Shown here: piece by piece, positions 41,414-43,415 of the stretch
Layout: each line of letters begins with the position of its first letter
How positions within the stretch are numbered: position 1 is the stretch's first letter
DNA from: Arenibacter sp. ARW7G5Y1
Lineage (GTDB): Bacteria > Bacteroidota > Bacteroidia > Flavobacteriales > Flavobacteriaceae
Direction: 5' to 3'
NCBI RefSeq assembly: GCF_003201775.1
Contig: NZ_QJJZ01000013.1
Coordinates: 1 to 64,000 of the forward strand
Length of the DNA: 64,000 nucleotides
Translations under genes and position numbers: made by a program
Notes under the pieces: model-generated
The model's input: the letters and a program-made list of their open reading frames with translations, nothing else
The model's database searches: none
What the model was told of the DNA's origin: nothing

Positions 41414-42061
41414 ATGAAAAATATAATTGCGGATACAGAAAATAACCGCCTGTACAAACTGGCCCTTGGATTTGCCTTGTTCACCATAATCTACAATGTT
41501 GCCGAGGGCCTAATCTCTACCTACTTAGGTTTTGAGGACGAAAGCCTGGCGCTGTTCGGGTTTGGTGCGGATAGTTTTATAGAGGTCATCTCCGGTATTG
41601 GAATAGCACACATGATCCTAAGAATCCAAAAAAAACCTGAAAGTAACAAGGATGTTTTTGAACGTACCGCTTTGAGGATAACAGGATTCGCCTTTTATAC
41701 TCTTGTGGCAGCCTTGGTATTCACTAGCCTGTACAACATATGGATTGGCCACAAACCTATAACCACCTTTTGGGGCGTTGTCATATCCATAGTCTCCATT
41801 GCCATTATGTGGATGCTTGTCCTGGGGAAAAGAAAGGTGGGTAAAGAACTAGACTCGGAACCAATCCTCTCCGATGCCAATTGTACTATGGTTTGTGTAT
41901 ATATGTCCATTATCCTGTTAATTAGTAGTGCTTTCTATGAACTGTGGAACATTCCCTATATAGACAGTATTGGTACTCTGGCCCTTTCCTATTTTGCATT
42001 TAAGGAAGGAAAGGAATGCTTTGAGAAAGCCCGTAGCAATAAATATTGTGGTTGCGATTGA
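41414..42061 (+). CDS. Membrane protein resembling a cation-efflux (CDF) domain
   Basis: 215 residues with about five hydrophobic segments. YNVAEGLISTYLGFEDESLALFGFGADSFIEVISG resembles the first metal-site helices of cation-diffusion facilitators, and LSDANCTMVCVYMS has the position of the second-site helix with Asp and two Cys. It ends in a Cys-rich tail (YCGCD). No cytoplasmic CDF domain is present, so it is short for that family. Metal or thiol transport is an inference. Confidence 0.65.
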   Translation: MKNIIADTENNRLYKLALGFALFTIIYNVAEGLISTYLGFEDESLALFGFGADSFIEVISGIGIAHMILRIQKKPESNKDVFERTALRITGFAFYTLVAALVFTSLYNIWIGHKPITTFWGVVISIVSIAIMWMLVLGKRKVGKELDSEPILSDANCTMVCVYMSIILLISSAFYELWNIPYIDSIGTLALSYFAFKEGKECFEKARSNKYCGCD

Positions 42062-42121: not shown

Positions 42122-42152
42122 TTTGTTTAGTTAGGATTCCTTACTATATTTG
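42122..42152 (+). promoter_or_regulatory. Promoter with embedded TTAGGATTCCTTA operator (copy 1)
   Basis: TTTG (42122-42125) and TATATTTG (42145-42152) are 19 bases apart. Between them lies TTAGGATTCCTTA (42131-42143), one base from the perfect palindrome TTAGGA-T-TCCTAA. A repressor bound there would block RNA polymerase directly. It drives the thioredoxin-like gene. Confidence 0.6.
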
Positions 42153-42186
42153 TGGAGCAATAGTGTTTAACTTAAAAATTGGAAGA

Positions 42187-42420
42187 ATGAAAAAATCAGT
42201 TTTTTATCACGCAGGATGTCCCGTATGCCTAAGTGCAGAACATGAGATCTTGGAACTAGTAGGAACGGACAATGTGGAAATTGTACATTTCGGAACCAAC
42301 AAATCCCGTATTCCCGAAGCCGAAAAAGCCGGGGTTAAATCGGTTCCCGCCTTGGTTACCCCCACCGGAAATGTGCTCCACATTAACTTTGGCGCTTCTA
42401 TGGCAGATGTAAAGGGTTAA
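42187..42420 (+). CDS. Small thioredoxin/glutaredoxin-like protein
   Basis: 77 residues from the ATG at 42187; a reading from 42112 would run through the promoter. Thioredoxin fold: FYHAGCPVCLSAEHEI with the CPVC active site at residues 11-14, and the cis-Pro segment VKSVPALVTPTGNVLHINFG. No signal, so cytoplasmic. Probably a thiol reductant. First member of the gene set sharing the TTAGGATTCCTAA motif. Confidence 0.85.
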   Translation: MKKSVFYHAGCPVCLSAEHEILELVGTDNVEIVHFGTNKSRIPEAEKAGVKSVPALVTPTGNVLHINFGASMADVKG

Positions 42421-42439
42421 AAAAATTTAATTTTACTGG

Positions 42440-42452
42440 TTAGGATTCCTAA
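42440..42452 (+). promoter_or_regulatory. TTAGGATTCCTAA palindrome (copy 2)
   Basis: A perfect odd palindrome, TTAGGA-T-TCCTAA, lies 19 bases after the thioredoxin-like stop and 32 bases before the apparent start of the DUF2024 gene. It matches the motif in the promoter of the first gene. Confidence 0.55.
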
Positions 42453-42484
42453 TTACCTATCGAGTCATTTCAACAAGAAATACA

Positions 42485-42748
42485 ATAAAGATATCGGTTT
42501 GGGACACTTACGTAGCCCGTGAAGATGGTAAGTCCATGCATTTTGACATACTGGTCCCCAGTACAATGGAAGATAAGGACAGGGTTATTAAATACGGGCG
42601 TAAATTCCTATCCCATAAGCCGTTCCCAACAGCCGACATATCCTCCAAGAAATGTAAATTCTGCCATATGGAACAGGTTTCAGAGGCCATAGCCGATATT
42701 ATCATTAAAGAAGGATATTATATCGTAGAAATGGAAAATTGCGAATAA
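42485..42748 (+). CDS. DUF2024-family protein with apparent ATA start
   Basis: Read from 42485 the product is 87 residues and begins with the family's usual first strand (xKISVWDTYVAREDGKSMHFDILVP). The first codon is ATA, where the family has ATG. No ATG, GTG or TTG exists upstream in frame before a stop at 42428. An internal ATG at 42536 would give 70 residues but lose the conserved VWDTYV strand. The C-terminal part has KCKFCHMEQVSEAI and IVEMENC. Either a rare start codon, a start-codon mutation or a sequencing error. Function of DUF2024 is unknown. Confidence 0.7.
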   Translation: MKISVWDTYVAREDGKSMHFDILVPSTMEDKDRVIKYGRKFLSHKPFPTADISSKKCKFCHMEQVSEAIADIIIKEGYYIVEMENCE

Positions 42749-42753
42749 TTTAA

Positions 42754-42766
42754 TTAGGATGACTAA
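42754..42766 (+). promoter_or_regulatory. TTAGGATGACTAA operator-like site (copy 3)
   Basis: TTAGGATGACTAA differs from the perfect palindrome at two positions in the right arm. It lies 37 bases before the MarR-family ATG, as expected for self-regulation. Confidence 0.45.
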
Positions 42767-42770
42767 CTTT

Positions 42771-42801
42771 GCCTGTCGGGTATAATCCCGACAGGCTTTT
42801 T
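42771..42801 (+). terminator. Terminator hairpin touching the MarR start
   Basis: GCCTGTCGGG (42771-42780) and CCCGACAGGC (42787-42796) pair perfectly around TATAAT and are followed by TTTTT. It should end the DUF2024 transcript. It stops two bases before the MarR-family ATG at 42804, so transcripts entering that gene from upstream would either terminate or carry the hairpin right at the start codon. Confidence 0.8.
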
Positions 42802-42803
42802 AT

Positions 42804-43415
42804 ATGGATAAAAGTATTTTTAATCCGGACCATCAGGAGAACGACGTTTCCAGTAAAATTGTTGCCGGACTTGAACGTATCTCCGAAGCATTCAAGGTTT
42901 TGCTCTGGGATAAAGCCAAATTATTGGGATTAAGCCCCATCCAGATCCAGATCTTAATTTTTATTGCCTACCACAAAACCGAATTCTGTAATGTAAGCCA
43001 CTTGGCCAAAGAATTCAATATTACCAAACCCACTATTAGTGATGCCATTAGGGTATTGGACAAAAAAGGCTTCATTACCAAAAACTACTCCTCCAGCGAT
43101 AGTAGAAGTTATTCCATTGGCCTCTCTGTAACTGGCCGAGATATTGTGGCCGAAACATCAGATTTTGCCAATCCCTTAAAGAACCAGCTTACCACTATCC
43201 ATCAGACCGACCTGGAAGCTCTATTCGGAACCCTTGGCAAACTTATCTATCAATTAAATAAAAGCGGCATTCTTACCGTGCAAAGAACTTGTTACGGATG
43301 TAAATTCTATAGTAGGAATACCGAACGGGACTATTGCAACTTATTGGATAAAGAATTATTGAATTCGGACATTAGGCTGGACTGCCCTGAATTTGAAGAA
43401 AGGCAAATACACTAA
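42804..43415 (+). CDS. MarR-family regulator with four-cysteine C-terminal tail
   Basis: 203 residues. Winged-helix MarR domain (about 20-140): LLGLSPIQIQILIFIAYHK, VSHLAKEFNITKPTISDAIRVLDKKGFI (recognition helix) and the wing SSSDSRSYSIGLS. After residue 150 a non-canonical tail carries CYGCKFYSR, YCNLLD and DCPEF, four cysteines arranged like a zinc or iron-sulfur site. This suggests a redox or metal sensor. Its likely operator is the TTAGGATTCCTAA motif, found three times in the 700 bases upstream, next to thiol-related genes. Confidence 0.88.
   Translation: MDKSIFNPDHQENDVSSKIVAGLERISEAFKVLLWDKAKLLGLSPIQIQILIFIAYHKTEFCNVSHLAKEFNITKPTISDAIRVLDKKGFITKNYSSSDSRSYSIGLSVTGRDIVAETSDFANPLKNQLTTIHQTDLEALFGTLGKLIYQLNKSGILTVQRTCYGCKFYSRNTERDYCNLLDKELLNSDIRLDCPEFEERQIH

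Follow-up and report, generated by a model that had tools for sequence, protein, structure and literature searches.

Within the MarR family of transcriptional regulators, thiol-switch members such as OhrR, MgrA, and SarZ are under cysteine (Cys) redox control, bind palindromic operators, and regulate their own genes; their switch consists of one or two Cys residues in the protein core. Another member, AdcR, targets zinc uptake genes. In Corynebacterium, the winged helix-turn-helix regulator ArnR carries a [4Fe-4S] cluster and is an NO-responsive repressor of hmp and narK, and the available part of its description gives three conserved Cys (179, 193, and 223) (PMC12343034).

Here, we analyzed a locus of Arenibacter sp. 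ARW7G5Y1 in which a MarR-family gene (42804–43415; this and all features with coordinates in the promoter–gene module below are on the forward strand) encodes a protein of 203 amino acids with four Cys in its C-terminal tail (Cys163, Cys166, Cys178, and Cys194; 43290–43385). Positions refer to the window, that is, the whole 64-kb stretch of DNA that was analyzed. Among the systems seen, ArnR is the nearest in logic: as far as the available part of its report goes, both combine a winged helix, a dimer helix, and conserved sensory Cys on the C-terminal side, and ArnR represses stress genes, as the present regulator would, but the three Cys of ArnR differ from the CxxC..C..C layout found here (PMC12343034). 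The cut-off of the NCBIfam ArnR model was failed (15.3 bits vs. 400). The MarR fold is shared with OhrR, MgrA, and SarZ, whereas the switch would here be an added Cys4 tail, and the NCBIfam OhrR model (a Vibrio model) was also failed (21.6 bits vs. 200). With AdcR-type proteins the regulator has in common the fold and possible zinc binding, but its targets are thiol-type proteins, and the AdcR cut-off was failed as well (20.7 bits vs. 175). A literature search, covering a minority of subscription journals, found nothing on regulators of this class, on the operator they use, or on the DUF2024 setting described below: it returned no report on MarR with DUF2024, nothing relevant on heme or P460 with MarR, and ArnR as the only analog of a Cys4 or zinc MarR protein. 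Redox-responsive MarR autorepressors are a known kind, and the Cys4-tailed class, its operator, and the DUF2024 setting are those for which no publication was found.

The initial annotation placed three copies of one palindrome ahead of three consecutive genes, and all three are present, starting at positions 42131, 42440, and 42754. The operon promoter consists of a -33 element TTTG (42122–42125) and, 19 bp further on, a -7 element TATATTTG (42145–42152), with a predicted +1 at G42157. Operator 1, the dyad TAGTTAGGATTCCTTACTA (42128–42146) with the core TTAGGATTCCTTA (42131–42143), fills the spacer between these elements, as had been proposed, and overlaps the -7 box. The thioredoxin-like gene (42187–42420) encodes 77 amino acids including Met, with a CPVC motif, and the middle site TTAGGATTCCTAA (42440–42452) separates it from the DUF2024 gene (42485–42748; 87 amino acids, with a CxxCH motif). 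Operator 3, TTAGGATGACTAA (42754–42766), overlaps the -7 element TAACTTTG (42764–42771) of the regulator gene; it is recognized by sequence, by conservation, and by its fixed -7 offset in relatives. It is made up of one full and one weaker half-site, near the usual form in relatives, TTAGGATTACTAACTTTG. A terminator-like hairpin with a T-run (42771–42801) follows and overlaps the predicted start site of the regulator. Just 5′ of the module lies a gene of the cation-efflux family (Pfam; 41414–42061) whose product has a C-terminal CGCD.

The regulator passes the Pfam cut-offs for winged-helix MarR proteins (MarR_2, 43.9 bits vs. 27; MarR, 34.1 bits vs. 24.6), and its six best named relatives belong to Arenibacter species (80–91% identity). 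AlphaFold2 gave a confident MarR core, and MarR proteins lead the best 50 Foldseek matches listed. The four C-terminal Cys noted in the initial annotation are real and invariant in an alignment of 104 regulators (104/104); Cys62 is variable, being kept in 88 of the 104. In 60 of the 89 solved chains, those listed, the matched stretches all end before the Cys4 tail. The tail itself was modeled with short strands at pLDDT 49–71, and zinc and iron–sulfur are therefore indistinguishable from the model.

Both target proteins have solved homologs. The thioredoxin-like protein matches PDB 2k8s, an entry named thioredoxin (E-value 1.5e-24), and scores 17 bits against Pfam Thioredoxin_3 (PF13192), under the cut-off of 24.8. 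The other protein exceeds the gathering score of DUF2024 (PF09630; 100.4 bits vs. 27) and is homologous to PDB 2hfq. The records seen for these two structures, whose source organism we take to be Nitrosomonas europaea, give no function. Among loci whose gene could be read from its start, both Cys of CPVC are present in 92 of 92 aligned thioredoxin-like proteins, and Cys57, Cys60, His61, and Cys86 (the last Cys) in all 57 aligned DUF2024 proteins. On the same basis, the 55 aligned DUF2024 loci start with ATG in 53 cases, GTG in one, and ATA in the window, where ATA seems to be the start; ATG is used in nine further loci from the genus. The next in-frame ATG in the window is at 42536, and annotation may begin there. 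In 39 of 104 loci, the regulator is accompanied by a third protein of about 240 amino acids (e.g., L142:4954–5676), called secreted on account of a signal-like N-terminus recognized by eye. Searches of Pfam, NCBIfam, and PDB found no match to it, its model (pLDDT 71.1) had no Foldseek match at E-value ≤ 0.001, and its gene was sought but not found in the genome of the window.

Palindromes next to AT-rich promoters could arise by chance, and in the window the 13-mer motif is indeed not enriched (35 matches with up to three mismatches vs. 34.0 expected from dinucleotide-keeping shuffles). In the 5.73-Mb genome, the exact form TTAGGAWTCCTWA occurs at 42131 and 42440 only, and matches with at most one mismatch (27 + 24 on the two strands) are not above the reversed control (28 + 36). 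We therefore turn to orthologous loci, where conservation shows the site to be non-random. The set of 104 loci came from 45 of 53 matched genomes (199 searched) and was extended by further searches (90 of 397 matched, and 17 of 18 for the genus); the remaining eight of the 53 had weak matches only (E-value > 1e-30, read as paralogs) and were counted as MarR-negative. The gene order is thioredoxin-like–DUF2024–MarR in 30 loci, thioredoxin-like–MarR in 28, thioredoxin-like–secreted–DUF2024–MarR in 26, and thioredoxin-like–secreted–MarR in 8, with MarR alone in 7 and other arrangements in 5. We took the best match with at most two mismatches inside 170 bp upstream of each gene, used single-base shuffling as the null, and removed loci with less than 120 bp upstream (1/93 for the thioredoxin-like and 2/39 for the secreted-protein gene). 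Such a site precedes the thioredoxin-like gene in 82 of 92 loci (1.2 expected), the secreted-protein gene in 29 of 37 (0.4 expected), the DUF2024 gene in 19 of 60 (0.7 expected), and the MarR gene in 74 of 104 (1.3 expected). That DUF2024 has a site directly before it in only 19 loci counts against the module model proposed below; all 19 have the order thioredoxin-like–DUF2024–MarR. Across these loci and the genome searches, the palindrome proved to be conserved, and chance is already refuted as an explanation, with virtually no probability left to it. The earlier suggestion of a functional area for DUF2024 is also supported. In at least 5 of the 80 named loci (L130–L209), a globin-like gene (Pfam Bac_globin) comes after the regulator, roughly 0.6 kb downstream of where the latter starts.

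The operator also co-occurs with the regulator. A 22-bp operator–promoter unit with 0–1 mismatch was found in 34 of 45 genomes containing this MarR gene and in 0 of 154 lacking it (Fisher's exact test, P-value = 4e-29, overstated because the genomes are related); the corresponding figures are 38/45 and 0/154 for the thioredoxin-like gene and 21/45 and 0/154 for the secreted protein. Eleven MarR-positive genomes are without a 0–1-mismatch site: four have a switched operator (G026, G080, G120, and G129), two a degenerate one (G156 and G169), and five are without the thioredoxin-like gene at E-value ≤ 1e-15. When 20 MarR-positive genomes were searched for exact TTAGGAWTCCTWACTA, all matches lay no more than about 2 kb from the regulator (19 genomes; G159 had none), and allowing one mismatch gave four matches outside the locus. 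In G102 (L247), the operator stands with a thioredoxin-like–secreted–DUF2024 operon 26 kb away from the regulator gene, so the operator follows its targets. The regulator itself was found in 28 of 395 genomes of the wider phylum at E-value ≤ 1e-25.

Candidates for a broader distribution were also considered. Two-mismatch operator–promoter matches occurred in four MarR-negative genomes (G044, G127, G133, and G173) and were set aside; a sequence common to G044, G133, and G078 lies inside an ORF, and the match in G173 and a second one in G133 are under open frames as well. The match in G127 (L271), TTAGTATTGCTTACTATATTTG, has two mismatches and lies outside any long open frame. A wider regulon in the genome of the window was rejected after 34 places with at most one mismatch had been read by script: site 1 aside, a -7-like box was present in two (L058 and L262), both within long open frames, and none of the 32 one-mismatch places elsewhere in the 5.73 Mb had a convincing promoter. 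In L042, TTAGGACTACTAA and TTATATTTG are located 1211 bp before the regulator, ahead of an ORF that resembles gamma-glutamylcyclotransferase (named by eye), a possible extra target. In the genomes searched, the operator is near-exclusive to the module, which supports the local mini-regulon envisaged in the initial annotation.

It might still be argued that an unlinked regulator binds the palindrome and that the MarR gene is merely one of its targets, since a self-repressing gene and a passive target look alike. The absence of the 0–1-mismatch operator–promoter from the 154 genomes without this MarR speaks against such a regulator, as does the way in which the operator changes with the DNA-binding region of the MarR protein, and we regard this possibility as very improbable. 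The change is seen in a sub-clade of eight regulators (L036–L039, L114, L115, L118, and L119; SH-aLRT 99 in a quick tree), whose first operator is TAGTTAGnTnAACTAACTA with 0–1 mismatch. The same operator change is present before the secreted-protein gene in all six loci having that gene, and a mixed site precedes the regulator in seven, L037 being without a clear site. All eight regulators have Asp80 replaced by Glu and Pro76 by Ala in the recognition helix, and Ser65 by Asn and His66 by Tyr just before it. Asp80 is found in 89 of 89 regulators with a GGA-type operator. Glu80 is found in 10 of 104: besides the eight of the sub-clade, it is present in the distant L045, which shares their operator type, and in L120, whose site is a hybrid. 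A simple rule is contradicted by L020, L043, and L117, which a script typed as GTT but which have Asp80 and mixed half-sites. Operator typing left out L031, L042, and L120; a GGA-type operator was found before the operon in the L031 genome. The covariation rests on few events because the switch is mainly that of one clade plus single cases. Conserved pseudo-palindromic sites at its own and neighboring promoters change along with the MarR protein, and the earlier idea of one regulator, one dyad, and self-regulation is supported. The pairing of two operator types with corresponding DNA-binding residues also lends itself to a natural test of MarR specificity.

To describe promoter geometry, we counted TAnnTTTG, TAnnTTTA, or TAnnTTAG as -7 boxes; in the accessible part of a study of flavobacterial promoters, this box spans -12 to -5 (PMC9723704). 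A -7 box lies at operator +14 in 81 of 82 thioredoxin-like promoters and at operator +10 in 65 of 74 MarR promoters, and these fixed offsets suggest that sites 1 and 3 are both positioned to block RNA polymerase. The middle site is another matter. A -7 box was sought there in the window and is absent, and in relatives the equivalent site has one in 5 of 29 cases before the secreted-protein gene and 2 of 19 before DUF2024. Since it mostly lacks such a box, its role should differ from those of sites 1 and 3, and the initial view that every site is the operator of the next gene is not supported for it. It is probably an auxiliary site, acting as a roadblock, loop, or transcript hairpin.

Alternatively, the middle site could act at the RNA level, as a hairpin for termination or processing with an operator-like arm. 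Ahead of the secreted-protein gene, 13 of 29 copies are followed by a second arm of the TCCTAAC type that could form a hairpin, as are 5 of the 19 copies ahead of DUF2024, and visual inspection of L116 and L122 places the site in a loop closed by a long stem. The fold in the window is, however, weak (-7.6 kcal/mol, z = -1.2 with dinucleotide-keeping shuffles), and the genus of the window keeps the dyad without such an arm (10 loci, two of them with one mismatch). We consider such an RNA element a serious but less favored alternative to the auxiliary site.

The terminator-like hairpin before the regulator gene is strong when complete (-21.9 kcal/mol, z = -7.0 with dinucleotide-keeping shuffles) and reaches -11.5 kcal/mol when folded from 42775. 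It is conserved at the MarR promoter: against single-base shuffles, z < -2 was obtained for 61 of 76 loci, a set that excludes MarR sites with more than three mismatches (17/104) or lying less than 30 or more than 80 bp from the start. Where promoter and hairpin overlap (42764–42801), the 5′ arm of the hairpin contains the predicted start site of the regulator. The full hairpin would end operon transcripts, and transcripts beginning at the regulator start would have an incomplete 5′ arm. Another palindrome, GCAATAGTGT (42157–42166), stands where the operon transcript is predicted to begin and is an imperfect copy of GCANTANTGC; CA....TG is preserved there in 65 of 93 thioredoxin-like promoters (3.1 expected from single-base shuffles). 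The initial annotation had named neither this palindrome nor the terminator nor the secreted protein of many relatives. The pattern TAnnTTTG-N4-GCANTANTGC has one copy in each of five of eight genomes, always at this locus, and is absent from the other three, including that of the window. As no copies lie outside the locus in the eight genomes, a site for a global regulator was rejected; the palindrome is perhaps a 5′-end stem of the mRNA.

The distribution of the Cys4 tail gives some indication of the signal. By eye, the same tail is present in plasmid-encoded MarR proteins of Thermus, Deinococcus, Nostoc, Rhizobium, and Sphingomonas, and such proteins outside Bacteroidota show 24–31% identity. 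Several of their genes lie near a secreted-protein or thioredoxin-like homolog, the former in Deinococcus, three Rhizobiaceae, Spirosoma, and Hymenobacter. Of 58 plasmid records with distant Cys4-tailed regulators, 13 were viewed, and 10 of these have redox, heme, or nitrogen-oxide genes within 6 kb, although the 13 were hand-picked and the neighbors have no background control. Two Thermus records contain P460 and a third nitrite reductase and cytochrome c; the Nostoc record has thiol peroxidase and a thioredoxin-like homolog, that of Hymenobacter catalase, HTHP, and protoglobin, that of Deinococcus a peroxidase-related enzyme, that of Pararhizobium catalase, TlpA, and a truncated globin, that of a Rhizobium superoxide dismutase and TlpA, that of Sphingomonas redoxin, and that of Tistrella TlpA. 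The Paraburkholderia, Sinorhizobium fredii, and Spirosoma records have no redox gene within 6 kb. Because of these neighbors, oxidative or nitrosative stress is favored as the signal.

The thiol, oxidant, or metal signal suggested in the initial annotation stands in part: the invariant Cys4 tail, the CxxC and CxxCH motifs of the targets, and the redox and heme neighbors of distant relatives all point to it indirectly, and we infer that the module answers a redox signal. Cys4 tails of the CxxC type frequently hold structural zinc, and many MarR proteins respond to ligands. The tail might then be a structural zinc site, in keeping with the short strands of the model; the signal would be a small ligand that binds where the two subunits meet, as it does in classical MarR proteins, and the redox appearance of the targets would be incidental. 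Given the invariant motifs of the targets and the redox and heme genes beside distant relatives, this reading seems to us rather unlikely.

Taken together, the locus is likely a local autoregulated MarR repressor module, and we think it reasonably probable that it forms a redox-type mini-regulon in which MarR represses the operon and itself, with the Cys4 tail as the switch. The model builds on the architecture, conservation, near-exclusivity, co-occurrence, and matching regulator–operator change observed above. Binding, repression, the Cys4 ligand, and the signal are its predicted parts. A MarR dimer would bind the dyad TAGTTAGGAnTCCTAACTA. Bound to operator 1, it would occupy the spacer together with part of the -7 box and thereby close the promoter of the thioredoxin-like/DUF2024 operon (with the secreted protein between them in many relatives); bound to operator 3, it would cover the regulator gene's -7 box, leading to self-repression. 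The terminator overlapping the regulator promoter would separate the two transcription units. The Cys4 site, with zinc or iron–sulfur, would be the likely switch; if it were broken by oxidant, NO, or metal change, the protein would release DNA and thiol-active proteins would be made.

A more specific and quite tentative proposal is that a widespread MarR class senses NO or reactive nitrogen (or peroxide) through an Fe–S or zinc Cys4 site and controls a defense module with three products: a thioredoxin-like protein containing CPVC, a DUF2024 protein that binds metal, and the secreted protein. Distant regulators have genes for cytochrome P460, nitrite reductase, or globins in their vicinity, and a metal-binding DUF2024 protein is tabulated in 29 of 30 Thaumarchaeota in the available part of one report (PMC6393860). 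If true, the NO-sensing reading would tie DUF2024 to nitrogen-oxide chemistry. For the DUF2024 and secreted-protein families, the analysis supplies a regulator together with a promoter and a stress context that can be tested, probably oxidant or nitric oxide, and the results point to a class of Cys4-tailed MarR proteins in Bacteroidota, Deinococcota, Cyanobacteria, and Proteobacteria.
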